From assembly GCF_030553055.1 (NCBI RefSeq), contig NZ_CP130713.1, positions 1,116,001 to 1,180,000 of the forward strand: a DNA stretch of 64,000 nt, read 5' to 3'. Of the stretch, positions 4,596 to 60,815 are shown in pieces. A program made the position numbers and the translations under genes. The notes under the pieces were generated by a model. That model saw only the letters and a program-made list of their open reading frames with translations, ran no database searches and was not told the origin of the DNA. This DNA is from Streptomyces sp. XD-27. Lineage in GTDB: Bacteria > Actinomycetota > Actinomycetes > Streptomycetales > Streptomycetaceae. The stretch's first letter is position 1, and every line of letters begins with the position of its first letter.

Positions 4596-5522
4596 ATGCG
4601 CGCAGTCATCCAGAAGTCCTTCGGCGGCCCCGAGGTCCTCGAAACCGTCGAGACCGAGCGCCCCACCCCGCTCGGCGGCGAAGTCCTCGTCCGCGTCCAC
4701 GCGAGCGCGGTCAACCCGGTCGATGTGGCGGTCCGGTCGGGTGCGTACCCGCTGCTCGGCGAGCCGCCGTTCGGCGTCGGCTGGGACATATCCGGCGTCG
4801 TCGAGGAGGCTGGTCCGGGTGCCCGGTTCAAGCCGGGCGACGAGGTCTACGGCATGCCGTTCTTCCCCCGCGCCGCCACCGGATACGCCGACTACGTTGC
4901 CGTCCCCTCGCGGCAGGTGGCCCGCAAGCCCGCCACGCTCGACCACGTGCATGCCGCCGCCATCCCTCTCGCCGCCCTCACCGCCTGGCAGGGCCTGGTC
5001 GACGCGGCCCAGGTGGCCGAAGGGCAGCGGGTGTTGATTCATCGCGCGGCCGGTGGCGTCGGCCACTTCGCCGTCCAGATCGCGAAGGCCCGCGGCGCCC
5101 ACGTCATCGCCCTGGCGAGTGAGCCCAAGCACGGCTTCGTGCGCGGCCTGGGCGCCGACGAGGTCATCGACTACCGGACCACCGACTACACGGAGGCGGT
5201 GCGCGATGTCGACGTCGTCTTCGACTCCTCGTCCGAGGGCACCCGCGCCCTGAGCGTCCTGCGGCCCGGCGGCACCCTCGTCAGCATCATGGAGCACTGG
5301 AACCAGGAGCTCGCCGCCGAGATCGAGGCCGCCGGTCGGCGCTTCGCAGGCATCTCGGTCGAACCCGACTACGCCTCGCTGGAGGCCATCGCCGCACTCG
5401 TCGACGCGGGTCGCATTCGCCCGCACGTCGCCGAGACGTTCCCGCTCACCGACGCCGCCAAGGCCCATGAGCTGGTCGCGTCCGGCGGAGTCCAGGGCAA
5501 GGTCGTCCTCACCGTCACGTGA
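4596..5522 (+). CDS. NADP-dependent quinone-oxidoreductase-type dehydrogenase
   Basis: A 308-residue cytosolic medium-chain reductase of the zinc-independent quinone oxidoreductase type. The N-terminal GroES-like domain is seen in the GGPEVLE start and in the SAVNPVDVAVRSG and GWDISGVVEEAG segments. The cofactor-binding Rossmann domain has an A-A-G-G-V-G-H-F-A-V-Q motif at about residues 153-163. The zinc-ligand cysteines of alcohol dehydrogenases are absent. The chosen ATG matches the family N terminus. The stop overlaps the leftmost possible GTG start of the AraC gene, so the two are co-transcribed and the regulator probably controls this enzyme. Substrate unknown. Confidence 0.88.
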   Translation: MRAVIQKSFGGPEVLETVETERPTPLGGEVLVRVHASAVNPVDVAVRSGAYPLLGEPPFGVGWDISGVVEEAGPGARFKPGDEVYGMPFFPRAATGYADYVAVPSRQVARKPATLDHVHAAAIPLAALTAWQGLVDAAQVAEGQRVLIHRAAGGVGHFAVQIAKARGAHVIALASEPKHGFVRGLGADEVIDYRTTDYTEAVRDVDVVFDSSSEGTRALSVLRPGGTLVSIMEHWNQELAAEIEAAGRRFAGISVEPDYASLEAIAALVDAGRIRPHVAETFPLTDAAKAHELVASGGVQGKVVLTVT

Positions 5523-5593
5523 GCGACCTCCTAAGGTGGAGGCCGGACAAGGACAGGCGTTGGTCGCGGGGAGCTGGGGAGGAGGGGAAGGCG

Positions 5594-6541
5594 TTGGACA
5601 TCCTGACCGAGGCGCTGAGTTCCATGCGGACCGGGCATCCCACGTCCGTACGCACTGAGGGCCGCGCGCCCTGGGGCCTGCGCCTCCCCCCGGTCGCCGG
5701 CGCCGGCTTCCACGTAGTGCTGTACGGAACGTGCTGGCTGGTCCCGCTCGAGAACGCCTCCGACGCGGAGCCGATCGCCCTGAGCCCCGGCGACGTGATC
5801 TTCCTGCGGGACGGCCGTGGCCACATCCTCGCCGACAGCCCCTCCACGCCGGCCGAGGCGGAGCGGCCCGACCAGTACCGGCCGAGTACACCGATCGGTA
5901 CGGTCACCCTCGGCGGCGACGGTCCCCGTACCAGCCTGCTGTGCGGCAACTACCACTTGGACCAAGGCCGTCCGCACCCGCTCGTTCGCCAGCTTCCCGA
6001 GGTCATCCATCTGCCCACGAGGCACGGCCGGCACCCCGAGCTGTGCGCCGCGGTCCAGCTCCTCGGTACGGAGCTGGAGAACCCCCGACTCGGCTCGACC
6101 GGCATCGTCCCCGCGCTGATCGACTCGCTGCTCCTCTACATCCTGCGCGCCTGGCTCGACGACCAGCCTCCCGCGGCCGCCGCGGGCTGGGCCGCCGCGC
6201 TCGGCGACTCCGCCGTCGCACCGGCCCTGGCCGCCATCCATGAGGCCCCCGCGGCGCAGTGGACCGTCGAGTCGCTGGCCGGCCGGGCGGGGCTGTCTCG
6301 CGCGGCCTTCGCCCGCCGCTTCACCACCCTCGTCGGCGAACCGCCCATGGCCTATCTGACTCGTTGGCGCCTGACGACCGCCGCCAAGCTCCTGCGCGAG
6401 TCCGAGGCCCCGCTGACCACGGTCGCCGCGCGGACCGGATACGGCTCCGAGTACGCCTTCGCGAAGGCGTTCAAGCGTGAGTACGGCCAGGCCCCCGGTG
6501 GCTATCGCCGCGAGGCCCGCGCTGCCTCAGGGGCCGGGTAG
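5594..6541 (+). CDS. AraC-family regulator with cupin_6 domain
   Basis: Transcription factor with an N-terminal cupin-type effector domain (about residues 8-175) and a C-terminal double helix-turn-helix of AraC type (about residues 215-305). Typical residues include ESLAGRAGLSRAAFARRF, then TRWRLTTAAKLL and SEYAFAKAFKREYG. I prefer the TTG at 5594 because AGGAGGGG lies directly before it and the resulting start (D-I-L-T-E-A-L) matches the family. A GTG at 5519 overlapping the upstream gene would add 25 residues. Cupin-AraC regulators next to oxidoreductases usually activate them in response to small organic molecules. Confidence 0.85.
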   Translation: MDILTEALSSMRTGHPTSVRTEGRAPWGLRLPPVAGAGFHVVLYGTCWLVPLENASDAEPIALSPGDVIFLRDGRGHILADSPSTPAEAERPDQYRPSTPIGTVTLGGDGPRTSLLCGNYHLDQGRPHPLVRQLPEVIHLPTRHGRHPELCAAVQLLGTELENPRLGSTGIVPALIDSLLLYILRAWLDDQPPAAAAGWAAALGDSAVAPALAAIHEAPAAQWTVESLAGRAGLSRAAFARRFTTLVGEPPMAYLTRWRLTTAAKLLRESEAPLTTVAARTGYGSEYAFAKAFKREYGQAPGGYRREARAASGAG

Positions 6542-6661
6542 TGCCCCACAGAGGCGGGCGACGATGGGGGCGAACCATGGCGGGTTTTCTCTCACCTAGC
6601 CCCACTTGCACGGCAGCGGGGCCGCTGCACAACTGCGGGCTGTCCCGAGCCTGGCTGACCG

Positions 6662-7753
6662 GTGCGGATGCGGCCCCGGCCACGAAGTGTTCACAATGGT
6701 GACGTGGATCATCACTCACCACAGTCGATACGGGACGGGGCACGCGCATCCCCGGTCCACGCGGCCAACGAGTGGGATCCCCTGCGCGAAGTGGTCGTGG
6801 GCGTCGCACACGGGGCGATGTTCCCGGCCGAGGACACCGCGATGGTGCGCGCCACCATGCCGCGTGAGCACTGGAGCCGCTTCGTCCCCGGAAACCCGTT
6901 TCCTGCCGAGGTGGTGCACGCTGCTGAGCAGGAACTCGACCAACTGGCCACGCTCCTGACGGAGCGCGGCGTGCGCGTGCACCGGCCGCTGAGCCTGGAC
7001 TGGGCAGCACTCGGAGGCTACAGCTCCGCCATGCCCCGGGATGGGCTGTTCGTCACCGGGGAGCGGATCATCGAGGCCCCGATGGCCTGGCGCAGCCGCA
7101 GGCGCGAGCACGATGCCTACCTGCCGCTTGTCCAGCGGCTCGTGAAGGAAGGTGCCCGGTGGCTGCCAGCCGGTGTCGACCGGGAGACGAGCGGTCTGTT
7201 GGACGGCGCCGGATCCCGCGACGGCTGGGTGATCAACAACACCAGGCCCGCCTGGGACGCCGCGGACTTCCTGCGCCTGGGCGAGGTGGTCCTCGGTCAG
7301 CTCAGCCATGTGACCAACCCGTCCGGCGTCGCCCACCTGCAAGAGCGACTCGGCCCCGAACACCGCGTCCACCTCGTCGGACCCGACGATCCGCACGCCA
7401 TGCACATCGACGCCACGCTGTGCCCGCTGCGCGAGGGCCTGGCCCTGTACAACCCCGAACGCATCGCCCCGCACCAGCTGCGCCGCTCGCCCCTGCGGGA
7501 CTGGCACCTGGTGGCCGCCCCGCCCCCCACCCCCCGCTCCTGGCCGCCGCTGTTCATGACCAGCGCCTGGGTCCACATGAACCTGCTCGTCGTGGGCCCG
7601 GACCAGGTGGTGGTCGAAGCTGCGGACGACGCCATGGCGGACCTGCTCGGCGGGTTGGGCTTCACACCCCTGCGCTGCCCCTTCCAACATGTTCAGAGCC
7701 TCGGCGGCTCCTTCCACTGTGCCACCCTCGACCTGCGCCGCCATGACGGCTAG
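6662..7753 (+). CDS. amidinotransferase (glycine amidinotransferase / StrB1-like)
   Basis: A pentein-fold enzyme expected to move the amidino group of arginine to an amine acceptor. The catalytic residues of the family are visible: Asp in PAWDAADF (about residue 200), His in H-I-D-A-T-L-C-P-L-R-E-G (about residue 241) and the nucleophile Cys353 in GGSFHCATLDL near the C terminus. Total length (363, or 349 if the in-frame GTG at 6704 is used) fits animal and actinomycete amidinotransferases. No strong ribosome site marks either start. It is followed after 228 bp by a decarboxylase-like gene, a second pentein and an exporter, which suggests a guanidino- or amidino-containing small molecule. Confidence 0.85.
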   Translation: MRMRPRPRSVHNGDVDHHSPQSIRDGARASPVHAANEWDPLREVVVGVAHGAMFPAEDTAMVRATMPREHWSRFVPGNPFPAEVVHAAEQELDQLATLLTERGVRVHRPLSLDWAALGGYSSAMPRDGLFVTGERIIEAPMAWRSRRREHDAYLPLVQRLVKEGARWLPAGVDRETSGLLDGAGSRDGWVINNTRPAWDAADFLRLGEVVLGQLSHVTNPSGVAHLQERLGPEHRVHLVGPDDPHAMHIDATLCPLREGLALYNPERIAPHQLRRSPLRDWHLVAAPPPTPRSWPPLFMTSAWVHMNLLVVGPDQVVVEAADDAMADLLGGLGFTPLRCPFQHVQSLGGSFHCATLDLRRHDG

Positions 7754-7790
7754 GCAACTGGCCTGAGGCAGGCCGCGCAGCTGCTATTTC

Positions 7791-7848
7791 TTGACAGCCC
7801 AAGGCGGCAGTGAAATAGTTAATATACATAAGCAAATGCTAAATTAGC
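7791..7848 (+). promoter_or_regulatory. candidate promoter with small palindrome
   Basis: A perfect TTGACA box at 7791-7796 is followed 19 bp on by TAGTTA and a run of A/T (TTAATATAC). This local AT-rich patch stands out in otherwise GC-rich DNA. Just downstream GCTAA-A-TTAGC (7838-7848) is a perfect 5-bp-arm palindrome that could be an operator. The position, 135-190 bp before the decarboxylase-like gene, suits transcription of the three-gene unit that follows. The spacer is longer than the 17-18 bp ideal. Confidence 0.45.
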
Positions 7849-7981
7849 CAGCACGGGGCACTGCGAGTGGGGACACCGAGTCGCTCCGTGGGCATATGCG
7901 CCACACAGGCGCATCCATCCGGAACCTTCGGACACGTGATGAACATCCGTGACCGTGCCCACCTCACGGCGGGGAATTATC

Positions 7982-8713
7982 GTGAAAACGCTCGAAGCTT
8001 GGATAGACTCGGACGTGCGCCCGCTGCAGGACAAGCCACTATCCTGGCTGTCCGAGAACCATTTCTTCCGAGACCCGGTCCGCGCGACGTTCATCGACGA
8101 CACCTACTTTTTCTCGCCGGCCGACGGAATCGTGCTGTATCAGAAGGAAGTCAAGGCGGACGCCGACCTGCTGGACATCAAGGGCAGGTCGTACACGTTG
8201 CGCCATGCGCTGCGGGATCCTTTTTACGATAAACACAGCCTGGTCGTCGGCATATTCATGACCTTCTTCGACGTCCACGTGAACCGGATACCGTTCTCCG
8301 GCCGGCTCTCCTACCGCGCCCTGAGCCCCATCCGCACATACAACCTCCCCATGCTGCCGACGGAGCGGACGATCCTGGACGATCTGCGGATCGACACCCG
8401 GAAGGCGAGCTACCTCCACCACAACCAGCGGGTGGTCAATCGGATCGACGCCCCCACTCTGGGAAGGTCTTACTACGTGCTCCAGGTCGCCGAATACGAC
8501 ATCAACGCGATCACGCCGTTCGGACTGGAACAGAACTGCCAGTTCACGCAGGGCCAGCGCTTCTCACAGATTCGTTTCGGATCGCAGGTCGATCTCATCG
8601 TTCCCCTGTCCGGGGAATGGGATTTCACCCCCGTCATACCCACCGGTTGCCACGTGGAGGCAGGTCTCGATCCACTGATCAAGATCCGGCGCACAACCAG
8701 GGCGACCGCATGA
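7982..8713 (+). CDS. phosphatidylserine-decarboxylase-family enzyme
   Basis: A 243-residue pyruvoyl-dependent decarboxylase. Family landmarks are DVHVNRIPFSG (about residues 98-108), the Y-N-L-P-M-L-P-T-E-R segment and the self-cleavage motif R-F-G-S-Q-V-D-L. There Ser201 should become the pyruvoyl group and the chain should split into a large beta and a short alpha subunit. The motif is FGS where bacterial housekeeping enzymes have LGST. The GTG start at 7982 follows GGCGGGGA. No transmembrane segment is evident. With two penteins and an exporter beside it, it may act on a soluble amino acid, as the PSD-like fungal PsiD acts on tryptophan, rather than in phospholipid synthesis; this is inference. 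Confidence 0.82.
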   Translation: MKTLEAWIDSDVRPLQDKPLSWLSENHFFRDPVRATFIDDTYFFSPADGIVLYQKEVKADADLLDIKGRSYTLRHALRDPFYDKHSLVVGIFMTFFDVHVNRIPFSGRLSYRALSPIRTYNLPMLPTERTILDDLRIDTRKASYLHHNQRVVNRIDAPTLGRSYYVLQVAEYDINAITPFGLEQNCQFTQGQRFSQIRFGSQVDLIVPLSGEWDFTPVIPTGCHVEAGLDPLIKIRRTTRATA

Positions 8714-8737
8714 GGCCATAAAGCGGAAGGGTTCATC

Positions 8738-9697
8738 ATGACATCCGATGCATTCGACATCGAGCGGCAGGAAACACCTCCCCGAAATCCCACGCTCCTC
8801 GATCAGCCGGCATTCCTGATGAACGCACCGTTTTCCTATTCCACAGAGGTCGCCAACAACGCATGGATGGAGGAGCTGTCGGAAGCGGAGCGGGTGCCCG
8901 ACAATGTTCGGTCATACGCCCAGTTCTTCACGCTCTACAGGTACCTGGCCGGTGAGGCGCTCGTCTATCTTCTGCCGACGCCGCGCACCGACGGCCTCCA
9001 GGATCTGGTCTTCACCTCCAATCTGGGCATCGTCCTCGAGCACGTACCCGGGGCCGACACTGTGGTGCTGTCGAACTTCACCAGCGAACCCCGGCGCGGC
9101 GAGACCGAAGTGGGAGTCCGGTTCTTCCGGTCGATGGGGTACAGGACCTATGTGCCGGATACCAAGTTCGAGGGTGAGGCCGAACTGAAGCATCTGCACG
9201 ACAACGTGTACGTGGGGGGGTACGGGCTGCGGTCGGAGCGGGAGACGTACAACTGGCTCGAGCGCACCTTTGACATGAAGGTCGTCAAGCTGGCGCTCAC
9301 CGATCCGTACCTGTACCACCTCGACTGCACCGTCTTCCCGCTCACCAGCGAGCAGACTCTGGTCAGCACGGAGTTCTACACCCCGGAAGAGATGCGCGAG
9401 CTCGAGCGACACACGGAGATCATCGACGTACCAGTCGACGCCGCCTATGCGGGGGTCTGCAACTCGATCCGGCTGCACAACGTCATCGTCAACGCCTCAC
9501 ACCTGTACGAACTGGCAGTCGGCGACAAGGACTACGACTCCGAGGTCCTCAAGAACCGGATGCTGGAGGACCTCGCCCGCAAGTTCGCCTTCGAGGTCCA
9601 ACTCATCAATCTCAGCGAGTACCTCAAGGGCGGCGCTCTTCTGTCGTGCATGGTGATGCACCTCAACCGGTTCTCGTACAGGTTCCAGTTGACCTGA
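8738..9697 (+). CDS. DDAH / arginine-deiminase-like pentein enzyme
   Basis: A 319-residue member of the guanidine-modifying (pentein) superfamily, closest in layout to dimethylarginine dimethylaminohydrolase. Visible motifs are P-R-T-D-G-L-Q-D-L-V-F-T-S-N (substrate-binding Asp and Asn), F-E-G-E-A-E-L-K, the catalytic His in Y-L-Y-H-L-D-C-T and the likely nucleophile Cys304 in GGALLSCMVMHL near the C terminus. It lies 24 bp after the decarboxylase gene with its own GGAAGGG site. Known relatives hydrolyse guanidines to ureas plus ammonia or amines, or transfer amidino groups. Which reaction applies here cannot be read from sequence. Confidence 0.8.
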   Translation: MTSDAFDIERQETPPRNPTLLDQPAFLMNAPFSYSTEVANNAWMEELSEAERVPDNVRSYAQFFTLYRYLAGEALVYLLPTPRTDGLQDLVFTSNLGIVLEHVPGADTVVLSNFTSEPRRGETEVGVRFFRSMGYRTYVPDTKFEGEAELKHLHDNVYVGGYGLRSERETYNWLERTFDMKVVKLALTDPYLYHLDCTVFPLTSEQTLVSTEFYTPEEMRELERHTEIIDVPVDAAYAGVCNSIRLHNVIVNASHLYELAVGDKDYDSEVLKNRMLEDLARKFAFEVQLINLSEYLKGGALLSCMVMHLNRFSYRFQLT

Positions 9698-9730
9698 CCG
9701 CCGGTGGCCGGTGTATTCGAGGAGAGGAAA

Positions 9731-11542
9731 TTGACCGCTTCGGGCGTGGCAGACAGGCCGACGGGCGCCGCAGGTGGGAGCGAGAACCCGGTCTTGGCGC
9801 TGTGGGGCCGTACACACGGGTTCCGTGCCGCGCTCGCGGGTCTGGTCATCCTGGAACTGCTGTCCAATGCCGCCGTGCTGGTGGAACCGCTGGTGGTCAT
9901 CTGGGTACTGGACGCGTTGCAGGACGACGGTGACCTCTCCACCCCGGTGCTCACGCTGGGCGGGATCGCCGTCGTCGGCGTGGCGCTGGCCGCTGTCACC
10001 GTGTTCCTGCTGGGACGCCTCGGACAGCGACTGGTACTCAGGATCCGACAGGAGACAGCGGACCGGATCCTGGACGGCCAGGTCACGGAGGTCGAGAGAC
10101 TGCCAACCGGTGATCTGCTGTCCCGGGTCGGCAGCGATACCACCCTCTTGCAGCAGACCCTGACCGAGGCACTGGTGCGCGGCGCCGTCGCGCCCTTGGC
10201 GCTGCTCGCGGCGCTGGCCCTGATGGCGACGATCAACGGCCTCCTCGCTCTGGTGCTGGTCGCCCTGCTGGCGTGCGCCACGGCGGTCGAGTGGTGGGCG
10301 ATCGGACGCCATTTCGAAGCCGCCGAGGACACCCAGAACCGGATCGGCCGCATGCTCACCGCACTGCAACGCGTCCTGATCGCCTTCCGAACGGTGAAAG
10401 CGTCTGCCACCCAGCCGGACGAGCGACGACGGATCAACGGGGAGGCCGCGGCCGCCTACCGCTCCGGGGTGCGCACCGCGAAGTGGGCCGCCGTAGTGGA
10501 CGCGGTCGGCCTCGGGACGATGGAAATGCTCTTCCTGGTGGCCTTGGGCATCGGCTCGTTCCAGGTCTCCTCCGGCCAGCTCACGCTGAGCGGTCTGGTG
10601 GCGTTTCTGCTGTACGCCATGTATCTGCGGGAGCCGGTGGAGAGGTTGACGGAGGCGGCCCCCTCCATCTCGTCGGGCCTCGCCGCCGTCCAACGGCTCG
10701 AGCAGATCAGGAAGCTGCCGGTGGAGTCCGCTCTCGAGGACGGCGAGGGCGCCCGCACCGATGGCACACCGAGCGGACACCGGCGCGACAAGCCCGGCGC
10801 GGGGAGCGTCGTCCTGGAGGACGTGTGGTTCGGCTATGACAGTACGGACGTGATCAAGGGGCTGTCGCTGAACCTGGGCCGCGGTCTGACCGTCCTGGCG
10901 GGCCCGTCGGGTGCGGGCAAGACCACGGTGCTGAGCCTGATCGAGCGGTTCGTCGACGCGGACCGCGGCCGTATCCGGTTCGACGGCGTCGACATACGGC
11001 ACTTCCACCGAGGCGACCTGCGCCGAAGGCTCGCCTATGTGGAGCAGGAGTCGCCCCTCCTGGGCTCGACCCTGCGCCAGGCCGTTCTCTATGGGGCTTC
11101 CGATGCCGGTGACGCCGAGGTCGCGGCCGTGCTGAGCGCGGTCGGGCTCGATGACTGGGTCGGCTCGCTCCCCCAGGGCCTGGACACTCCGCTCGGCGAG
11201 CGCGGCGTGACCATCTCCGGCGGACAACGGCAGCGCCTGGCGGTGGCCCGGGCCCTGCTGCGCCAGGCGGAAGTGCTGCTTCTGGACGAGGCGACCTCAC
11301 AGCTCGACGGCCGGAGCGAACGGGTGCTGTTGCGGACCATCGTCGAGAACGCCAGGGCGCGCACGGTCGTCGCGGTCACCCAGCGGCTCTCCCTCGCCGC
11401 TCACGCCGAACGGGTCGTCGTGCTGGACGACGGCCGTATCCGCGCGGTGGGCACACACCAGGAACTTCTCAGCACCGATCCTCTCTACCGGGCGCTCGCC
11501 GCCTCGGACGACCACGTGCCGCCGTCGACACGTTCGGCCTGA
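9731..11542 (+). CDS. ABC exporter, fused membrane and ATPase domains
   Basis: A half-size exporter of about 603 residues. A six-helix ABC transmembrane domain covers about residues 25-300. The ATPase domain has Walker A GPSGAGKTT, signature ISGGQRQR, Walker B VLLLDEATSQLD and a following switch region ending in T-Q-R-L-S. TTG 9731 is the preferred start because GAGGAGAGG lies directly before it; the in-frame GTG at 9704 has none. It ends the decarboxylase-DDAH-exporter unit and probably exports the product or supplies self-protection. As a half-transporter it should act as a homodimer. Confidence 0.88.
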   Translation: MTASGVADRPTGAAGGSENPVLALWGRTHGFRAALAGLVILELLSNAAVLVEPLVVIWVLDALQDDGDLSTPVLTLGGIAVVGVALAAVTVFLLGRLGQRLVLRIRQETADRILDGQVTEVERLPTGDLLSRVGSDTTLLQQTLTEALVRGAVAPLALLAALALMATINGLLALVLVALLACATAVEWWAIGRHFEAAEDTQNRIGRMLTALQRVLIAFRTVKASATQPDERRRINGEAAAAYRSGVRTAKWAAVVDAVGLGTMEMLFLVALGIGSFQVSSGQLTLSGLVAFLLYAMYLREPVERLTEAAPSISSGLAAVQRLEQIRKLPVESALEDGEGARTDGTPSGHRRDKPGAGSVVLEDVWFGYDSTDVIKGLSLNLGRGLTVLAGPSGAGKTTVLSLIERFVDADRGRIRFDGVDIRHFHRGDLRRRLAYVEQESPLLGSTLRQAVLYGASDAGDAEVAAVLSAVGLDDWVGSLPQGLDTPLGERGVTISGGQRQRLAVARALLRQAEVLLLDEATSQLDGRSERVLLRTIVENARARTVVAVTQRLSLAAHAERVVVLDDGRIRAVGTHQELLSTDPLYRALAASDDHVPPSTRSA

Positions 11543-11787
11543 GGCCGACCCGCCGAAGACCGCCGCGGTCACCCTCGTCTGGCGGCAAAGCGGTTCGGTG
11601 TGGAGGTGCCGCGGGGTGTCGGTTCATGTGGTGGAGGCAGCGGCGGGCGAGGTCGCGTTCAGACCGCTCGATCAGTCCTCCGGCCGAAGCCGCTGACGAG
11701 CGGCCGCGGTGCTCGGCTCAGCGTCCGTAGAAGTCGGCCCTGATCGCGACGACGACGCGCAGGCAGTTGTCGGCACCGCGTCCGTCA

Positions 11788-11821
11788 TCTCTGCCCGTGG
11801 CGAATCTGCGGCGGGCAGAGA
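11788..11821. promoter_or_regulatory. 10-bp-arm inverted repeat upstream of clpP3
   Basis: TCTCTGCCCG (11788-11797) pairs perfectly with CGGGCAGAGA (11812-11821) around a 14-nt centre, about 80 bp before the clpP3 start. The rest of the 357-bp gap after the ABC gene shows no gene. The site could be part of the control region recognised by PopR, or a leader hairpin; sequence alone cannot decide. Confidence 0.4.
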
Positions 11822-11899
11822 AACCGCATCCGGGGATCTCCCGAGGTCAAGAGTGGAGTCGACGGCGTCCCTGCCTCGACGGAGACCAAAGGAGACCAG

Positions 11900-12538
11900 A
11901 TGACTTCACTCACCACGCTCCAGCCGCGCGCGGAGGAGGGCGACACACCGCCCAGCCGCTTCGACGACCATCTCGCGGCACAGCTGCTCGCCCAGCGGAT
12001 CGTCCTCCTCGGCACACAGGTCGACGACGTGTCGGCCAACCGTGTGTGCGCGCAGTTGCTGCTGCTGTCGGCGGAGGACCCGCGCACCGACATCAGCCTG
12101 TTCATCAACAGCCCCGGCGGGTCGGTCACCGCCGGTCTCGCCATCTACGACACCCTGCGGCTCATCCCGAACGAGGTCTCGACGCTGGCGATGGGGTTCG
12201 CCGCCAGCATGGGCCAGTTCCTGCTCACCGTGGGGGCGCCCGGCAAGCGGTTCGCGCTGCCGAACGCGCGGATCATGATGCACCAGCCCTCGGCGGGCAT
12301 CGGTGGCACCGCCGCGGACATCGAGATCCAGGCGGAGAACCTCCAGTTCACGAAGAAGGCCATCGAGCGGATCACCGCCGAGCACACCGGGCAGAGCGAG
12401 GAGACGATTCGGCGGGACGGCGACCGGGACCGCTGGTTCACGGCCGAGCAGGCCAGGGAGTACGGGATGGTGGACCGGGTGGTGGAGTCGCTCGCCGACA
12501 TCCGCCCGGCCGCGTCGCGCCGACGGATGGGGTTGTGA
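11900..12538 (+). CDS. clpP3: ClpP protease subunit, ClpP3 type
   Basis: A 212-residue serine protease subunit that assembles into a barrel and degrades proteins delivered by Clp ATPases. The whole catalytic triad is present: Ser103 in GFAASMGQF, His128 in MMHQP and Asp177 in [16 protein letters not shown] and the C-terminal EYGMVDRVV are standard. A GGAGACC site precedes the ATG. Its stop is one base before the start of a second clpP gene, the arrangement of the Streptomyces clpP3-clpP4 operon. That operon is known to be silent until ClpP1P2 function is lost and the activator PopR accumulates. Confidence 0.9.
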
Positions 12539-12539
12539 C

Positions 12540-13142
12540 ATGGGGTCGTACACGGTTCCCTACGTCATCGAGCGGACCGCGCAGGGCGAGCGGTCCTACG
12601 ACGTCTTCAGCCGGCTGCTGAACGAGCGGATCATCTTCCTCGGCACCGAGATCGACGACGGGGTCGCCAACGTGGTCATCGCGCAACTCCTGCATCTGGA
12701 GTCGGCGAACCCCGAGCGCGAGATCTCGATCTATCTCAACTCGCCCGGTGGATCGTTCACTTCGCTGATGGCGATCTACGACACGATGACGTTCGTGCAG
12801 GCGCCGATCTCCACGTTCTGCGTCGGTCAGGCGGCGTCGACGGCGGCGGTGCTGCTGGCCGGCGGAGATCCCGGGCGACGGTTCGTGCTCCAGCACGCGC
12901 GGGTGCTGCTCGGCCAGCCGGCCAGCGGCGGCCGGCAGGGGACGGTCTCCGATCTCAGCCTCGCGGCCAAGGAGATGGTCCGCATCCGCTCGCAGGTGGA
13001 GGAGGTCCTGTCCCGGCACACGCATCACGACGTGGCGACGCTGCGCGCGGACATGGACCGGGACAAGGTGCTCACCGCCGAGGAGGCCGTCGCCTACGGG
13101 CTCGCCGACGAGGTGCTGAGCCGACGGCTCGCGTTCGTCTGA
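12540..13142 (+). CDS. clpP4: ClpP-like subunit, ClpP4 type, catalytic His replaced
   Basis: A 200-residue ClpP paralogue starting one base after clpP3 stops. The fold-defining [10 protein letters not shown], the nucleophile region VGQAASTAA (Ser100) and the M-D-R-D-K-V-L segment are kept. Where ClpP3 has M-M-H-Q-P this protein has L-L-G-Q-P, so the catalytic histidine position is glycine (residue 125). As written it should not be proteolytically active alone and may serve as a structural or regulatory partner ring for ClpP3, comparable to other mixed ClpP barrels. Partner identity is from the conserved operon; loss of activity is inference from the missing residue. Confidence 0.88.
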
Positions 13143-13175
13143 CCCCGCGCGGCCGTGGCCGAAGGCCGGCGAGCC

Positions 13176-13222
13176 GGCCGGTACGGCGGTGGTGCGCCCC
13201 GTGCGCCCCGTCCGTACCGGCC
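13176..13222. terminator. bidirectional terminator between clpP4 and popR
   Basis: GGCCGGTACGG (13176-13186) pairs perfectly with CCGTACCGGCC (13212-13222) in the 90-bp gap between the convergent clpP4 and popR genes. Confidence 0.75.
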
Positions 13223-13232
13223 GCCGGTTCGG

Positions 13233-13664
13233 TCAGGCGGCGAGACAGAGGCCGTCGTACTGCGCCGTGGGCGCCGTGCGGCCCCGGCCCACCCGGCTCC
13301 GGGCGTACCGGGCCAGCTCGTCCTGGGCGAGCGAGAGCAGGTCGGCGAGGCCGAGCCCGAGGGCCTGGGCGGCGGCCGCGAGCACCTCGGAGGAGCCCTC
13401 CTTGCGTCCGCGCTCGAGCTCCGACAGGTACGGCATCGAGATCCGAGCCGCCTCCGCGACGTCCTTCAGCGTGCGCTCCTGGGCGAGCCGCTCGCGCCGC
13501 AGCACATCGCCGACGAGGTCGCGCCACAGGGGTTCCCTCGGCGCGGGTGTCTGTGGGGCTCCCGCCGGTCGCTGCGGGGCGCGGGTCGCCCCACCGGAAC
13601 CGGGCGGCGAGGTCTGCGGGCGCAGGGGGATGACGCGGGCGTCGTTCGGCGCATGAGTACTCAC
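13233..13664 (-). CDS. popR: PopR-type HTH activator of clpP3-clpP4
   Basis: A 143-residue XRE-family DNA-binding protein. The helix-turn-helix lies at about residues 62-105 (T-L-K-D-V-A-E-A-A-R-I-S-M-P-Y-L-S-E-L-E-R-G). The N-terminal 45 residues are disordered and Pro/Ala-rich. Two things point to PopR rather than ClgR: its position next to clpP3-clpP4 and the C-terminal Leu-Ala-Ala. In Streptomyces PopR activates clpP3-clpP4, and a terminal Ala-Ala tag makes it a substrate of ClpP1P2. That degradation explains how the second operon is switched on only when ClpP1 is absent. The GTG start at 13664 lies within the family length range. Confidence 0.82.
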   Translation of the reverse strand: MSTHAPNDARVIPLRPQTSPPGSGGATRAPQRPAGAPQTPAPREPLWRDLVGDVLRRERLAQERTLKDVAEAARISMPYLSELERGRKEGSSEVLAAAAQALGLGLADLLSLAQDELARYARSRVGRGRTAPTAQYDGLCLAA

Positions 13665-19607: not shown

Positions 19608-20351
19608 GTGCCCAAGCTGTACGTCTCACGGGCCATCAGCGCCCTGCGCAAGGCAGCGGCCCTGCCCGAGGACCGCCTGACCGCTCTGAAGCACGCCGGC
19701 GAACTGTTCGCCACCGGAACCGTGGCCGGCCCGACCGCCACCGAGTACGCGACCGCTGTCTGCCGCATGTCCGGCACCCCGCTGACCAACGTCCGCACGG
19801 CGATCCACAGCATCCGCGCCTGCGCCGCCGAGGCGTACCGCAGCGCGCAGGCCGCTCGCCCGGTCGGCGCGGTGAACGACTGGCGCGACCCGCCGGCCCG
19901 CACCGGCCGGGCGGTGTGGACCCGCCGCGGGGACGTGCTCGCCCTGCACGCCCCCGGAAACCACCCCGCCGTCCACACGACGTGGCTGGAGGCCCTGGCC
20001 CTGGGCGAACGTCCCGGGCTCGCCGACGGCGAACCGTGCACCTTCGACCCGCCCTCCCCCTGGACCACCTTCTGGGTCATCGATCCGGACACCCGCGAGC
20101 GCGTCGCATACGGCCGGCGCGGTCAAGTCGTCATGAACCACGTCAGCAAGGGCTTCCTGTTGCCCAACAACCTGGAACGCGACACGGCCATCCGCTCCCA
20201 GCCCCCCCCCGACGGCACGACCGCGACCGACTCGGTGAGCACGGTCAAACCACTCGAGACCGTTGGGGACAAGCGCGTCATCGAGGGCGTGTACCAGCTA
20301 CTTCTTCAGGGGCACGTAGCCAGGCGACTCCCACCAAGTCCTCGATGGTGA
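19608..20351 (+). pseudogene. chimera of LuxC-like reductase start and EhpF-like ligase end
   Basis: The first about 130 residues (VSRAISALRKAAALP, then G-R-A-V-W-T-R-R-G-D-V-L-A-L-H-A-P-G-N-H-P) look like the N terminus of an acyl-CoA-reductase/aldehyde-dehydrogenase-type protein (LuxC, EhpG). From about residue 145 the sequence (PWTTFWVIDPDTRERV, then V-V-M-N-H-V-S-K-G-F-L-L-P-N-N-L-E-R-D) matches the C terminus of AMP-forming phenazine-pathway ligases such as EhpF. The middle of both enzymes, including the catalytic cysteine, is missing. This is best explained by a deletion between two neighbouring genes of a lost phenazine-type cluster. The frame is open, but no function is expected. Confidence 0.55.
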
Positions 20352-22668
20352 TCGGCATCTTGCGGAACCGGCGTCCCGTCGCATGGTGCACCGCGTTCGC
20401 GATGGCCGCCGCCACCCCCGCCTGGCCGATCTCGCCGACGCCCTTGACTCCGAGCGGATTGACGACGGCGTCCTCCACCTCGATGAGGTCGACGTCGATG
20501 TCGGGTACATCGGCGTTGACCGGTACGAGGTACTCCGCGAGGCTGGTGTTGGCCCAGCGGCCGGTGGCCGTGTCCATGTGGGTCGCCTCCAGGAGTGCCT
20601 GGCTCTGGCCCCAGATCATGCCGCCCATGAGCTGGCTGCGGGCCATTTCGGCGTTGAGGATCCGGCCCGGCGCGAAGGCGCCGGCCATCCGGCGGACCCG
20701 GATCAGGCCGAGCTCCGGGTCGACGCCGACCTCGGCGAACTGGGCGCCGAAGGTGACCATCGCCCAGGGCGCGTCCCGCGGTGGCGGGCCCCACGCTCCC
20801 GTGACCTCGACGTCCGGCAGGAGATTCCGTTGCAGCAGCGCGGCGTAGCTCTCGCCGGTCTCCGGGGCGGAGCGCAGCCGCATCCTTCCGTCCCGCACCA
20901 CGACGTCCTTCACATGCGCCCCGTACAGTGGCGATCCGGGATCGGCCACGGCTTGGGCGATCAGCTGGTCGCGCAGCGCCGTACCGGCCGTGTGTACGGC
21001 CGCGCTCACCATCCCCGCCCCTGCCGATCCCACGGCCGACGCCACGTGCGGCAGATCGGTGTCCCCACCCGTGAACCGGCACAGATCGACCGGCAGGCCC
21101 AGAGCCTCGGCGGTGACCTGGGTCATGGAGGTCAGGGCCCCGGTGCCGATGTCGGTGACGGCGGCCTGGACGACGGCCGTACCGTCGGCGTGGATGCGGG
21201 CCCGGGCCCGCACCGGGTTGTACGGCTCGAAAACCGGATAGGCCGCGGTCGCCATGCCCAGCCCGATCAGCCATGGCCCGTCCCGCTGCGGCGGGTCGGC
21301 CCGCCGGTGCCAGCCGATCCGCTCGGCGCCGCGCTGGTAGCACTCGCGAAGCCCCTTGCTGCTCCAGGGGCGTCCGGTCTCGGGGTCGGTCTCCGCGTAG
21401 TTGCGCAGCCGCAGCTGAAGCGGGTCGATCCCCGCCCGCTCGGCGAGCTCGTCCATGGCGCACTCCAGCGACAGCAGGCCGGTGGCCACGCCCGCGCAGC
21501 GGGTGAACGTCGGGGTCATGGTGTTCGCGTGGATGAGCCGGTAGACGCGCTCGAATGCGGGACAGGCGTACAGCTTGCCGGACAGTTCCAGCGAGGGCTC
21601 GGCGAAGTCGTCGAACGGGGAGGTGAGGGAGAGCTTGTGGTGGCGTACGGCGGTGAGCCGCCCCTGGTCGTCGGCGCCGAGGGTGACACGGTGCTCCTGC
21701 TCCTCGCGGTGGCCGCAGGAGGAGAACATCTGCTCACGGGTGACGGCGAGCCGTACGGGGCGTCCCACGGCGCGGGCCGCCAGCGCGGCCAGGGTGGCGT
21801 GGTGCCAGACCTGGCCTTTGCACCCGAAGCTGCCACCGGTGTAGTGGCTGATGACCCGGACCCGGCTGTGCGGGATGCCGAGCAGCGCGGCGACGGTGTG
21901 CTGAGGGGCCGTCACGCCGTGCGTGGTGTCGTACAGGGTGAGCCGGTCGTCCTCCCAGGAGGCGGTGGCGGCGTGGGTCTCGATGGGGTTGTGGTGGTTC
22001 GCCGCGAACGAGTAGGTGCTCTCCACGATGGCGGCGGCCCGGGCCAGCCCGGCGGAGACGTCGCCCCGCTCGGAGCGCCCGGGGACGAACCCGGCGGAGA
22101 CGTCCCCGCGCTCGGAGCGGCCGGGGACGAACCCGACGAAGACCGTCTCGAGCTCGTAGGCGGCGTCCCTCCCCTGGTCGATGACGGTGACCGCGGGCTC
22201 CTCGGCGTACTCCACGCGGACGAGCCGGGAGGCGTGCAGCGCGCGGACGTAGGTGTCGGCGACCGCCATCGCCACGTGCTGCCCCGCGTAGTGGACCCGG
22301 TCGCCCTGCATCGGGAAGAACGTCTCGCCCGGTGCGGCGGTTCCCTCCAGGGACGGGACCAGAGGAGGCTGCCCAACGATCTTGCCGATGGTGTCGTGGG
22401 TCAGGACGGCGATGACGCCGATGGCCCGCTCCGCCTCCGAGATGTCGATGGCGGTGATGCGGCCGTGGGCGATGCGCGCGCCGACCAGGACCGCGTGGGC
22501 GAGGCCGGGCAGCGGGATCTCCGCCGCGTAATGCGCTGCACCGATGACCTTGACCGGGCCGTCCACCCGGTCCAGGGGGCGGCCGATGGGACCGGCGGAG
22601 ACAGCGGGCGTGGTGCTGTCGGAAGCGGTGGGCATGGTGCTGTCGGAGGCGGCGGGCATAGTGCTCAT
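20278..22668 (-). CDS. molybdopterin-binding large subunit of a PaoC/YagR-type dehydrogenase
   Basis: A 796-residue xanthine-oxidase-family subunit that would hold the molybdenum cofactor and oxidise an aldehyde or heteroaromatic. Landmarks are G-R-P-L-D-R-V-D-G-x-x-K-V near residue 30, the cofactor loop TGGSFGCKGQVW and the catalytic glutamate in K-G-V-G-E-I-G-Q-A-G near the C terminus. Two repeats are odd: the N-terminal 24 residues repeat an A-S-D-S-T motif, and a 42-bp duplication doubles G-F-V-P-G-R-S-E-R-G-D-V-S-A at about residue 185. The two partner subunits upstream are broken, so this protein is probably an orphan. Its 3' end overlaps the convergent chimera by 74 bp. Confidence 0.82.
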   Translation of the reverse strand: MSTMPAASDSTMPTASDSTTPAVSAGPIGRPLDRVDGPVKVIGAAHYAAEIPLPGLAHAVLVGARIAHGRITAIDISEAERAIGVIAVLTHDTIGKIVGQPPLVPSLEGTAAPGETFFPMQGDRVHYAGQHVAMAVADTYVRALHASRLVRVEYAEEPAVTVIDQGRDAAYELETVFVGFVPGRSERGDVSAGFVPGRSERGDVSAGLARAAAIVESTYSFAANHHNPIETHAATASWEDDRLTLYDTTHGVTAPQHTVAALLGIPHSRVRVISHYTGGSFGCKGQVWHHATLAALAARAVGRPVRLAVTREQMFSSCGHREEQEHRVTLGADDQGRLTAVRHHKLSLTSPFDDFAEPSLELSGKLYACPAFERVYRLIHANTMTPTFTRCAGVATGLLSLECAMDELAERAGIDPLQLRLRNYAETDPETGRPWSSKGLRECYQRGAERIGWHRRADPPQRDGPWLIGLGMATAAYPVFEPYNPVRARARIHADGTAVVQAAVTDIGTGALTSMTQVTAEALGLPVDLCRFTGGDTDLPHVASAVGSAGAGMVSAAVHTAGTALRDQLIAQAVADPGSPLYGAHVKDVVVRDGRMRLRSAPETGESYAALLQRNLLPDVEVTGAWGPPPRDAPWAMVTFGAQFAEVGVDPELGLIRVRRMAGAFAPGRILNAEMARSQLMGGMIWGQSQALLEATHMDTATGRWANTSLAEYLVPVNADVPDIDVDLIEVEDAVVNPLGVKGVGEIGQAGVAAAIANAVHHATGRRFRKMPITIEDLVGVAWLRAPEEVAGTRPR
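22051..22134. repeat. 42-bp in-frame tandem duplication
   Basis: Copies at 22051-22092 and 22093-22134 differ at three positions and encode the same 14 residues twice. It lies in a surface region between cofactor domains of the molybdoenzyme gene and keeps the frame. Confidence 0.9.
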
Positions 22669-23662
22669 GACGCGCTCCCGGTGAGGGTCCGGAGTGCCCG
22701 GACGATGGTGCGCCGTGCCAGTTCGGGCTTGAAGGCGTTCATGGGGGTGGTCAGAGCGGGGGCCAGCTCCTCCTCGGCCGCCCGCGTGAAACTCTCGTCC
22801 GTGGCGGGGGCGCCCCGCAGGACGGCCTCGGCGCGGTGGGCCCGCCAGGGCCTGGTGGCCACGCCGCCCAGGGCGATCCGTACGTCGCTGATCGCCCCGT
22901 CCATCACGCTGAGCGTGGCGGCGACGGAGACCAGTGCGAACGCGTCCCGCGGTGGCGCACCTTGAGATACAGCGAGCGGCGCGCCATCGGGAGGGCGGGC
23001 ACCTCGATGGCGGTGATCAGCTCGCCGTGCTCCAGCGGATGTTCGCGGTCCGGCGTGGACCCCGGCTCAAGGAAGAACTCCCCGAAGGCGTACCGCCGTT
23101 CGCCGACCAGAGTACGGGTGTGGATGACGGCGTCGAGGGCGGCGAGCGGGACGGCCACATCGGAGGGGTGTGTGGCAATGCAGTGTTCGCTGGTGCCCAG
23201 GACGGCGTGGCCGCGGCTGACGCCGAGCAGCGCGGAACAGCCGGTGCCCGGCTCGCGCTTGTTGCACGCGGCCTGGTGGTCCCGGTAGTAGCCGCAGCGC
23301 ACGGCCTGCATCATGTTGCCGCCCATGGAGGTCATATGGCGTAGCTGCGCGGAGGCGCCCAGCTCCAGCGCCTGCGCGACCATGGGAAATCGCTCCCGTA
23401 CGGTCGGCGACTCGGCGGTGTCGCTCATCCGGGCGAGCGCGCCGATGCGCAACCCTCCGTCCGGCAGCTCCTCGATGCCGGTGAGCGGCAGTCGGTTGAC
23501 GTCGACCAGGCGGCGCGGCGTGCGGACGTGCTGGCGCAGCAGATCGACCTCGGTGGTGCCGCCCGCGAGGAAGGCGCTGCCGGGGTCGCCCCGGACGGCA
23601 CGGACGGCCGCCTCCACGCTGTCGGCCCGCAGATAGCTGATGGGATGCATGACGATCTTCAA
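22665..23662 (-). pseudogene. FAD-binding subunit (PaoB/YagS-type), frameshifted
   Basis: Medium subunit of the molybdoenzyme. The first frame (23662 to about 22950) has the FAD-binding F-L-A-G-G-T-T-E-V-D-L and S-M-G-G-N-M-M-Q motifs. It also has the cysteine cluster C-G-Y-Y-R-x(5)-C-x(7)-C that in PaoB-type subunits binds an extra 4Fe-4S centre. The second frame (about 22957 to 22665) continues with the C-terminal G-G-V-A-T-R-P-W-R domain. The frame breaks near 22950-22957, inside a GCGGGACGCG run where one base is missing or two are extra. The stop overlaps the large-subunit start by 4 bp. Confidence 0.78.
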
Positions 23663-29614: not shown

Positions 29615-30425
29615 TCAGTTCCCTTCGGTTTCGAAGCTGCGCAGCAGATCGGCGGCGACACTCACGGCAATGGTCGCGGGTTCCTTGCCGGTGATGTCGG
29701 CCAGCCCGATCGGGGTCTTGATCCGATCGATGGTGGCCTCGTCGTGGCCGCCCTCGGTGGTGAGGCGTTTGCGGAACCGTGCCCACTTGGCCGCCGATCC
29801 GATCAGCCCGATGGAGCCGAGGTGGGTGGTGCGCAAGGCTGCGTCGCACAGAGCGGCGTCCTCGGCGTGATCATGCGTCATGATCAGGATGTGGGTGCCG
29901 CGCGGCAACTCCGCCAGCACCTCCTCGGGCAGCAGGGGCGTGTGATGCACGTGCACCTGCGCCACCGCGTCTGCCAGCACGTCGAGCCGTTTCTCGGTGA
30001 GGATGTCGGAGCGGCTGTCGATCAGGTGGAGGTCGAGGTCCTGACGGGCCAGGATGCGCGCCAGTTCCAACCCGACGTGCCCGACGCCGAAGATCGCCAC
30101 CGCCCGTACCACCGGCAGCGGTTCGAGCAGCACCGAGACCGTGCCGCCGCAGCACTGCACGCCATGCTGGTTGGTCACCTTGTCGTTCAGGGCGAAATCG
30201 ATCAGCTCCGGCTCCGGCTTGGACGCGGTGATCATCTCCCGGGCCCGATCGATCGCGACGGCCTCGACATTGCCGCCACCGATGGAGCCCCACGTCTCGG
30301 TCTGCCCCACCACGAGTTTCGCGCCGGCGTCGCGCGGGGCATGGCCGCGCACGGTCGCGACGGTCACCAGCACGCCGGACTCCCGGCGTGCTCGCAACCG
30401 TGCGACCGCGGCGACCCACGTCATG

Positions 30426-30433
<8 letters not shown>
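29615..30433 (-). CDS. xdhC: XdhC-family molybdenum-cofactor insertion protein
   Basis: A 272-residue accessory factor that binds sulfurated molybdenum cofactor and loads it into xanthine dehydrogenase. The N-terminal XdhC domain has V-R-G-H-A-P-R-D-A-G-A-K and W-G-S-I-G-G-G-N-V-E, with the paired cysteines Q-C-C-G-G near residue 94. The C-terminal Rossmann domain has I-F-G-V-G-H-V-G (about residue 115). Its start overlaps the end of xdhB by 8 bp, so the operon is translationally coupled. Confidence 0.9.
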
Positions 30434-34321
<3,888 letters not shown>

Positions 34322-34689
34322 GACAGGCCTTCGTTTCGGTGCGCGATCGGTCGATTCATTGTGTTCGCCAATGTCAGGCAGCTTTCTGTGTTCAGACACG
34401 CCCTGTGAGAGGAGCGGGCGCACAACAGCGCGCGACAGCGACGTGCCGAGAGGTGGTGACGGGAAACCCGGAATGTGCCACGGACGGGCACATCAGAACG
34501 GCGTGCTCAGCAGCCGTGCGCGATCCGACCCGGAACCCAGACCGTGCACTGGGCGAGGCGACCGAGATCAGAGCTGGTGTACATCCGCTGGTCGCCTCCT
34601 CTCGGTAGCTATGGGTCGACGTTCACCGCAACGTAGTGGCTGGCGTCACCGGGGTCAAGAGATCATCTCGGTCTCTTGAGAGCCGATCG

Positions 34690-35160
34690 GACTCGAGGCT
34701 GGGAGCCACCGCCGGGTGGTCGCGCGCACGGTGTCCTGGCCGGCCGGCACCAGGTGCATCTCCGGCCGCTAGGGGAATTGGGTCCGCAGAGCCTGCAGAT
34801 CCGCTCCGGGATCCGCCGTATGTCGAGGTAGTCCTGGATGAAGTCCCTCAGAGCGGGGTTCTGTCCGATATTCCCAAACTGGGACGGGGCCGGCGGGCGT
34901 CGGCGCGGGCCTGGGCCGCATACGTCCGGTACTGGCCATGGACCGGGTACCGGTGGCGGCGGATCTCGCGGCAGACGGTGGAGGGGCTGCGGCCCAGCTC
35001 GGCGACGATCGCACGGACGGTGGCGCCCTCGCGCAGCCGGTCGGCGATGTGGATCCGGTCGGACTCGCGCAGATGGCTCGAAGGGCCGGGCGGGGCGCCA
35101 CCGCTGTGTTGGGTGGCGCCCCGACGTTCCGGCCGGACGAGACGTGGCCGTTACGCCACC
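34690..35160 (-). pseudogene. IS30-family transposase remnant, multiple frameshifts
   Basis: Three frames of the minus strand together spell the N-terminal half of an IS30 transposase. In order they are D-R-I-H-I-A-D-R-L-R-E-G-A-T-V-R and helix-turn-helix S-P-S-T-V-C-R-E-I-R-R, then G-Q-Y-R-T-Y-A-A-Q-A-R-A, then N-P-A-L-R-D-F-I-Q-D-Y-L, A-L-R-T-Q-F-P and R-P-E-M-H-L-V-P. The DDE catalytic domain is gone and no terminal repeats are seen. It separates xdhA from the deaminase gene. Confidence 0.75.
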
Positions 35161-35365
35161 GCTTCCCCGTCGCCGCGGCGTCCGGCGGTTGATGCTGGCG
35201 ATCCGGCACCTCGAGATCCGGGACCGCTCGGTCAATCGGGGACGCCGTCCCCTGACCGAGGAACGGCCCGTCCTGTGTCCGGGTCGGCTTCGATGACCGT
35301 GGAGTGGTACAGCGTGTGTTGACCCTGGATCGGCACGGGTTCCCGCTCTTGTCAGTAGTCGACTG

Positions 35366-35863
35366 TCAGTAGTCGACGCGGTCGGACTTCGCGAGCCACG
35401 CGTCGAACGGCGCGGTGCGGGTGGGCAAGTCCAGGTGGACGACCTGCATGGGCCACGCTTCTTGGGGCCTCTTCTCGAACAGGTCGTAGAACTTGCGGTC
35501 GTCGAAGCCAGCCGCCGCGGCGTCGTTGCGGTCGGCGGAGAACACGAGCCGGTCGACGCGCGCCCACAGGGCGGTGGACAGGCACATCGGGCACGGCTCG
35601 CACGAGGTGATCAGGGTGCAGCCTTCGAGGACGAAGGTGCCCAGTGCCGTACAGGCGGCGCGTATCGCGTTGACTTCGGCGTGCGCGGACGGGTCGTTCG
35701 TCGCGGTGACCTGGTTGTGTGCGGTCGCGATGACTGTGCCGTCCTTGACGATCAGGGCGCCGAAGGGACCGCCTCCGCTGTTCGCGCTGTCGGTGGCGAC
35801 GGCGATGGCCTGCTGCATCCATGCCTGCTCGTCCTGGACGATGGTCGCGGTGCTCACGGTCAC
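35366..35863 (-). CDS. purine/nucleoside deaminase (guanine-deaminase-like)
   Basis: A 165-residue zinc hydrolase of the cytidine/deoxycytidylate deaminase superfamily. The zinc site is complete: H-A-E (His ligand and proton-shuttling Glu) at about residue 63 and P-C-P-M-C at about residue 91. Length and the C-terminal F-Y-D-L-F-E tail match bacterial GuaD-type guanine deaminases. Guanine deaminase makes xanthine, the substrate of the nearby XdhABC, which supports that role; tRNA-adenosine or other purine deamination is the alternative. GTG 35863 follows AAGGAG. Confidence 0.82.
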   Translation of the reverse strand: MTVSTATIVQDEQAWMQQAIAVATDSANSGGGPFGALIVKDGTVIATAHNQVTATNDPSAHAEVNAIRAACTALGTFVLEGCTLITSCEPCPMCLSTALWARVDRLVFSADRNDAAAAGFDDRKFYDLFEKRPQEAWPMQVVHLDLPTRTAPFDAWLAKSDRVDY

Positions 35864-35950
35864 GGTTGCTCCTTGTCGAATACGGTGGGGTGGAGTGGGG
35901 TGCGGGTGCCGTCGAGGAGACGGTGGCACCCGCACGAACAGGGGGTCCGG

Positions 35951-43861: not shown

Positions 43862-44028
43862 CTGATCGCGCTGCCGAGCCCGAGCGGTTCGCGGCCGTCG
43901 CGGCGTACGACCGTGCCGCCGCGCCGCTTCGGCTTCTCCTTGCGGGTGGCGCCGTTCTTCTTGGCCGCCTCCCGGGCGGCGAGCAGGGCCTGGCGCGCGA
44001 GGTCGACGCCGCTCAGCTCGGTGGTCAT
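43862..44028 (-). pseudogene. dciA (DUF721) N-terminal fragment
   Basis: About 56 codons starting M-T-T-E-L-S-G-V-D-L-A-R-Q-A-L and a lysine-rich stretch, ending P-L-G-L-G-S-A-I. This matches the N terminus of the actinomycete DciA protein, which helps load the replicative helicase. The gene breaks off at the Tn3 junction. A scrap of a replication gene here suggests it came with a mobile element or duplication; the chromosomal dciA should lie near gyrB, outside this window. Confidence 0.6.
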
Positions 44029-44184
44029 GCGATCACCGCGACAGCGGCGGCAGGACCTGCAAGGCGTCTGATCACCTCAGCTGTTCCTCGGCATGTGCAC
44101 ACTGATACCGGTAGCGGGTTGCCGTTCTGCCGTCACATGAGGAGGGGCCATAAGGGACAGGAGCTGCGAAAGATGTAAGAAAAG

Positions 44185-60736: not shown

Positions 60737-60815
60737 GTACAGCTCCCTCAAGAACAGACGAGAACGACTACGATCAGCAACCTAGCCTTCACGCAGGGCT
60801 CTTGGAGGGGACTTC

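Follow-up and report, generated by a model that had tools for sequence, protein, structure and literature searches.

A phosphatidylserine decarboxylase-like and pentein gene pair of Streptomyces sp. XD-27, recurrent in bacteria and phages, as a candidate arginine-to-amine module

In a 64,000-nt stretch of Streptomyces sp. XD-27 DNA (NZ_CP130713.1, positions 1,116,001-1,180,000; hereafter the window), we describe a cassette of three genes, encoding a protein predicted to have the phosphatidylserine decarboxylase (PSD) fold (P0002), a pentein (P0003) and an ABC exporter (P0004). The clustering of the PSD-like and pentein genes is not a matter of chance, since the two are found together repeatedly in two public collections, of bacterial and of viral contigs. 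Judging from folds, conserved residues, and gene neighborhoods, we give an even chance to the reading that the two enzymes could turn arginine into ornithine and then into putrescine or a close amine, which would subsequently be exported. The fold and residues of P0003 suggest that it would, like ArgZ, hydrolyze L-arginine in two rounds, leaving L-ornithine and releasing CO2 and two ammonia; the P0002 proenzyme would cut itself between Gly211 and Ser212, generating a pyruvoyl cofactor, and, as its family, its neighborhood and its replacement in some genomes suggest, the cleaved enzyme would decarboxylate ornithine, giving putrescine or a close amine; finally, the ABC exporter, or a MATE exporter elsewhere, would move the amine out of the cell. 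The reaction types are known; it is the pairing of a PSD-like protein with a pentein that is undescribed within the literature searched.

Results

The conserved unit lies on the forward strand and comprises the following features:

7791..7819, + strand: promoter-like site TTGACA-17-AATAGT, 5' of the three-gene unit (consensus match only)
7949..8713, + strand: predicted pyruvoyl-type decarboxylase of the PSD fold (PF02666), P0002; likely start GTG 7982
8738..9697, + strand: pentein, arginine-dihydrolase-like (ArgZ/AgrE N-domain fold), P0003
9704..11542, + strand: ABC exporter with fused membrane and ATPase domains (ABC_membrane and ABC_tran in Pfam), P0004

A preliminary description had placed four genes at this locus, an amidinotransferase and these three, and had treated the last three as a tight unit behind a promoter. 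The genes were confirmed from open reading frames (ORFs) and from Pfam and PDB matches, and the last three (7949-11542) are a true unit with its own promoter-like site, because the gaps are only 24 bases between the PSD-like and pentein genes and 6 bases between the pentein and exporter genes. The sigma-70-like site, found once against 0.4 (sd 0.7) expected from shuffled sequences and defined by consensus match only, sits between the amidinotransferase and decarboxylase genes and parts the two. No known RNA, riboswitches included, was detected within 6500-12000 at E 1.

Conserved co-occurrence in many actinomycetes, which the preliminary description had put forward as support for a pathway, was found and extends far beyond that group. 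Scanning with an alignment (A1) recovered 90 relatives in genome contigs, and scanning with the pentein recovered 114 in viral contigs; we retained 80 loci from each set. The PSD-like gene accompanies the pentein in 66/80 bacterial loci (59 with the PSD-like gene first, 7 with the pentein first), and in 145 of all 160 loci. By their titles, the bacterial loci belong to actinobacteria, Acidobacteria, Verrucomicrobia, Gemmatimonadetes, Latescibacterota, Planctomycetota, Proteobacteria (including Xenorhabdus and Photorhabdus), Bacteroides, Prevotella, cyanobacteria, and others; among the 14 loci without a PSD-like gene, two (L107 and L134) end at a contig edge and four are cyanobacterial. In 65/80 bacterial loci an exporter is encoded close to the pentein, from the MATE cluster in 42 and from the ABC cluster in 23, while such clusters occur in 9/114 flanking 5-kb windows, a control not matched in size to the near zone of about 8 kb. 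Relatives of P0004 (44-56% identity) start at most 150 bases 3' of the pentein in five loci (L084, L086, L088, L090, and L135), and another lies 450 bases behind it in L108. Within the genus, a close pentein is carried by two of 295 genomes, the one studied here and G051, and at least a distant match by 288/295. Any other recurring gene was confined to a single lineage in the loci examined. Condensation-domain proteins stand beside the pentein in Prevotella (L158, L159, L160) and Cylindrospermum (L156:11450-12715), identified by Pfam in L159 and L156 and otherwise by eye or by ORF cluster; the three Prevotella loci also encode a MATE protein fused to a HATPase-type domain (Pfam in L159), and six Bacteroides-group loci (L148-L150, L152-L154) carry a penicillin-amidase-type gene 5' of the pentein (Pfam in L152, with an ORF cluster common to the six).

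In the viral set, the PSD-like gene adjoins the pentein in 79/80 loci, on the same strand and with a gap below 300 bases, the pentein coming first in 77 and the PSD-like gene in 2; the lone locus without it (L050) is on a contig that stops 85 bases past the pentein. These contigs are very likely phages, because ORFs of a major-head-protein cluster and of a PhoH-like cluster, each with one member named by PHROGs, occur in 73/80 and 71/80 of them. PHROGs lists both cassette genes as being of unknown function. Cultured-phage records matching the pentein at E 1e-5 number 47 (40 Campylobacter, 6 Bacteroides, and one distant Xanthomonas phage), and those matching the PSD-like protein 45 (39 Campylobacter, 6 Bacteroides). 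In phage DAC20 the two genes adjoin; NCTC12673 carries them some 42 kb from each other, under the annotations aminidotransferase and phosphatidylserine decarboxylase. The 80 viral loci yielded no relative of the window's ABC exporter, and MATE proteins were not sought there separately. Monophyly of the phage penteins was rejected: in a midpoint-rooted tree of 160 sequences, any clade holding 70 or more viral members has 77 leaves or more, the smallest (support 0.78) including one bacterial metagenome-assembled contig (L145), and 4/80 viral penteins fall outside it. In the available parts of earlier reports, a putative glycine amidinotransferase is mentioned in Campylobacter phages CP220 and CPt10 (PMC2853527), and genes of phosphatidylethanolamine and creatine pathways are described as virus-enriched among the metabolic genes of ocean phages (PMC11360552).

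P0003 carries Cys304 and scores 24.5 bits against PF19420 (DDAH; cut-off 23), so that calling it DDAH-like, as was done at first, is right as far as it goes; the wording is loose, and arginine dihydrolase is closer. Both the fold and the active-site residues of ArgZ were recognized in P0003, and of the penteins listed, ArgZ is the closest to it in fold and agmatine deiminases are the most distant. Two Arg residues of ArgZ and DDAH, which we take to bind the substrate carboxylate, are both kept, and 48/49 sequences retain Asn95, which aligns with N71 of ArgZ. Asn95 was rejected as a mark exclusive to dihydrolases, since generic DDAH-like proteins carry it too. P0003 is 24-29% identical to ArgZ/AgrE, the arginine dihydrolase of the cyanobacterial ornithine-ammonia cycle, from which it differs in having Ser for Lys before the Cys and Cys for Thr after HLD, in lacking the fused second domain, in falling under the NCBIfam cut-off, and in being usually encoded beside a decarboxylase. 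Separately, a pentein paralogue in Streptoalloteichus (L136:9207-10900, also L137) has lost Cys304 and Asn95, as seen in L136, and in the PSD-like protein adjoining it the cleavage site is intact; the same species name is given for a further copy of the cassette (L106).

The PSD-family protein with an FGS cleavage motif reported at first was upheld: P0002 scores 90.5 bits against PF02666 (cut-off 22), and has FGS at residues 210-212, with G211 and S212, together with D59 and H110 (presumably the catalytic Asp and His of the PSD family), invariant in 51/51 aligned sequences, including the Gly-Ser self-cleavage site. From comparison with relatives, translation more likely starts at GTG 7982 than at 7949. 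P0002 missed 12/12 NCBIfam decarboxylase models widely (best 77.8 versus 183 bits), the lipid PSD equivalogs among them. PsiD, acting on tryptophan, and the arginine decarboxylase of Aspergillus oryzae (9jer and 9jf5, one entry with arginine by title) are PSD-fold decarboxylases of free amino acids, to which P0002 is 14-15% identical in structure alignment; unlike them, its family is one of bacterial and phage proteins (254 aa), usually encoded beside a pentein.

Neighboring genes point to a di- or polyamine. MATE and ABC exporters suit a small cation. In two cyanobacterial loci (L155 and L156) a pyridoxal phosphate-dependent decarboxylase of the Orn_Arg_deC family (Pfam) replaces the PSD-like gene next to the pentein, and L151 and L157 look alike by eye; for the L155 enzyme, the best NCBIfam model was LysA, under its cut-off. 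In ten Verrucomicrobia loci (L109, L110, L112, L114, L115, L116, L118, L120, L121, and L124) the cassette is followed by a MATE gene on the opposite strand and then by a PotD-like ORF, after which a sensor ORF appears in 8/10, the other two loci ending inside the PotD-like ORF; no permease was called between the MATE, PotD-like, and sensor ORFs. The sensors of L112 and L109 combine dCache (below cut-off), HAMP, HisKA, HATPase, and receiver domains, and a PAS domain is present in the L109 sensor and in the truncated L116 sensor. We take the ligand residues of PotD to be W34, E36, Y37, D168, W255, D257, Y293, E171, W229, S83, Y85, Q327, and T35; in eight full-length PotD-like proteins the first seven are kept in 8/8 and E171 in 7/8. 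An export-and-sense circuit for an amine, built from the MATE, the PotD-like protein and the sensor kinase, is a possible reading of this gene order. NspS-MbaA of Vibrio senses polyamines and likewise pairs a PotD-like periplasmic protein with a membrane sensor with no permease called alongside; it differs from the sensor of the Verrucomicrobia, a hybrid histidine kinase of dCache-HAMP type that is encoded next to a predicted amine-synthesis cassette and a MATE exporter.

We also surveyed 14 cassette genomes, of untold completeness, for other ornithine and arginine decarboxylases. The idea that such enzymes are absent was rejected, as fold-III decarboxylase genes occur in 14/14; G316-G320, G322, and G323 hold a single one, which is probably LysA. 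No fold-I decarboxylase scored above cut-off in the 14 (weak matches in 6), and PvlArgDC and AdoMetDC were each found in two, both times G322 and G323. The Verrucomicrobia G316-G320 thus have no fold-I decarboxylase above cut-off, no PvlArgDC, and no AdoMetDC.

Bleomycins carry terminal amines, agmatine and spermidine among them. G051 holds a bleomycin cluster by sequence, with an acetyltransferase (661 bits over its full 301 residues) and a binding protein (272 bits) matching solved structures, as well as beta-hydroxylase, ankyrin, carbamoyltransferase, GT9, and nonribosomal peptide synthetase (NRPS) genes. Its pentein gene is flanked by those of the acetyltransferase and an ABC exporter (L207, G051:C1:60001-79999), in a resistance region that also has the ankyrin, binding protein, and beta-hydroxylase genes, and its PSD-like gene, with 54% identity and no break from residue 11 to 247, is found some 60 kb from the pentein within the cluster; this arrangement differs from the cassette in that the two genes stand apart, inside an NRPS cluster. 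No assigned role was found for the L207 pentein and exporter or for the PSD-like gene of the cluster, and the available part of an article on bleomycin-type clusters contains neither "decarboxylase" nor "amidino" (PMC3777966). In our 64-kb window no NRPS-size ORF was called, the longest ORF having 805 aa, and a bleomycin-family cluster was not recognized within it.

Upstream of the unit lie two further genes:

5519..6541, + strand: AraC-type regulator with Cupin_6, P0005 (Cupin_6 170 bits, HTH_18 75 bits), upstream neighbor
6662..7753, + strand: AGAT/HsvA-type amidinotransferase, P0001 (best PDB match HsvA), neighbor outside the conserved cassette

P0001 is an amidinotransferase with intact catalytic Cys353, His and Asp, as first described: in the PDB it best matches HsvA (224 bits; the title of 5wpi names a polyamine amidinotransferase), SxtG, and human AGAT, alignments with which preserve Cys353 as well as the HxD and DAADF motifs, and no Pfam family matched at E 0.001. 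Its proposed membership in the cluster was not borne out, and we rejected it as part of the pathway: relatives occur in 0/80 viral and 0/81 bacterial cassette loci, and two genomes with relatives of 63% identity (G012 and G278) have no PSD-like match and distant pentein matches only.

Elsewhere in the window, two consecutive ClpP-like genes and an opposite-strand helix-turn-helix regulator stand directly behind the cassette (11900-13664), two molybdenum-hydroxylase (xanthine-dehydrogenase-like) gene sets lie at 20278-23662 and 29615-35935, the latter next to a deaminase-like gene, and divergent GmhA-like and GmhB-like heptose genes at 58649-61451, all by eye; G+C falls locally to 0.547 at 44001-45000 against a background of about 0.70.

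Discussion

Dihydrolases take off the entire guanidine carbon, converting arginine to ornithine, CO2, and two ammonia. It had been proposed at first that an arginine-derived guanidino or urea amine is made, trimmed, and exported; the making and export of an amine is the best inference, and retention of a guanidino or urea group is doubtful, because the pentein resembles dihydrolases, which leave ornithine.

Several observations weigh against the route from arginine through ornithine to putrescine. P0003 scores 93.5 bits against the NCBIfam ArgZ model NF052232, whose cut-off is 450, and because it misses this cut-off its activity could differ from that of an arginine dihydrolase; the Asn motif, shared by 5/5 generic DDAH-like proteins compared, is not diagnostic, and in S. 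hindustanus (L136) the PSD-like gene is kept beside a pentein without C304 and N95. For the PSD-like model, none of the PDB entries matched by Foldseek reached E 0.001 and the 50 matches listed include no PSD, and VIA scored the unrelated EIIA-Glc above PSD (12.2 versus 10.4). By analogy with the solved PSD-fold arginine decarboxylase, arginine would be an equally natural substrate for the second step. The cyanobacterial L155 also holds an agmatine-deiminase-type gene (L151 and L157 by eye), which hints at agmatine in cyanobacteria. In the PotD-like proteins W229 is replaced by Tyr and S83 by Asp in 8/8, T35 by Ser or Asp; none of the eight retains Y85 or Q327. AdoMetDC and spermidine synthase were each found in 0/13 phage records (11 virus records and 2 named phages, some maybe fragments), for which reason spermidine synthesis by the phages was rejected. 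Finally, part of the signal of a Mantel test, which had no control gene, could come from shared descent alone.

The main rival has agmatine formed first: the PSD-like enzyme would convert arginine to agmatine, and the pentein would yield putrescine or N-carbamoylputrescine, or serve a parallel branch. We regard this as possible though unlikely. It draws on the solved A. oryzae enzyme, whose fold P0002 is predicted to share, on the agmatine-deiminase-type neighbor in cyanobacteria, and on the presence of both genes within a bleomycin cluster, bleomycin B2 carrying agmatine; however, agmatine has no carboxylate, and the pentein retains both presumed carboxylate-binding Arg residues, besides being farthest in fold from the agmatine deiminases listed.

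A less probable alternative is a building block of specialized metabolism, with amines that vary by lineage (a bleomycin-type terminal amine or acylated amines) and a product in Streptomyces sp. XD-27 that is unknown. The cassette genes of the G051 cluster, the condensation-domain proteins of Prevotella and Cylindrospermum, and the penicillin-amidase-type gene of L152 would fit this, but the additional recurring genes are confined to single lineages and the window has no called NRPS-size ORF.

Nearest to the "urea amine" proposed at first, and improbable in our estimate, is a deiminase route, whereby the pentein would stop at citrulline, the PSD-like enzyme would form N-carbamoylputrescine, and a ureido amine would be exported. 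Penteins more commonly hydrolyze in a single step, as DDAH and ADI do, and one residue may matter, given that PDB 6juz is by title ArgZ N71S with a covalent intermediate; against this, Asn95, at the aligned position, is nearly always kept. That P0002 is a true phospholipid decarboxylase beside an unrelated pentein, as its Pfam name and public annotations of phosphatidylserine decarboxylase would have it, is very improbable, and we rejected it in view of its scores below the NCBIfam cut-offs and its pairing with the pentein.

Returning to the arginine-ornithine-putrescine reading, no description of the gene pair was found in titles or abstract openings of the open-licence literature, most subscription papers lying outside the search. 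The initial statement that no described pathway has this set holds to that extent; it is qualified by the two genes already lying in a bleomycin cluster and by the solved PSD-fold arginine decarboxylase. The closest parallel is with AdoMetDC-derived pyruvoyl ornithine and arginine decarboxylases, which, in the available parts of the reports, resemble the cassette in pyruvoyl chemistry (for P0002, predicted here), phage carriage, and proposed putrescine supply, and differ from P0002 in protein fold (PMC9992855; PMC10407285). One of these reports treats phage polyamine enzymes including such decarboxylases, presented, in the part available, as a third fold able to decarboxylate ornithine (PMC9992855). 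The words "phosphatidylserine" and "dihydrolase" are absent from the available main texts of both (PMC9992855; PMC10407285).

Conclusion

In brief, we tentatively propose, as a possibility with clearly less than an even chance, a new arginine-to-putrescine route assembled from two recruited folds, spread as a cassette that includes an exporter in bacteria but apparently not in phages; in the same reading, a PotD-like protein of Verrucomicrobia, together with a hybrid sensor kinase, would sense the secreted diamine as an extracellular signal. Public records name the cassette genes phosphatidylserine decarboxylase, DDAH, or amidinotransferase; if the arginine-to-amine assignment is right, a gene pair common in phages and bacteria would be an amine-synthesis module, and the PSD fold would join those able to decarboxylate ornithine, beyond the third fold set out in the available part of PMC9992855. 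Likewise, the role of two bleomycin-cluster genes would become testable, and a candidate secreted polyamine signal, together with its sensor, would have been named.

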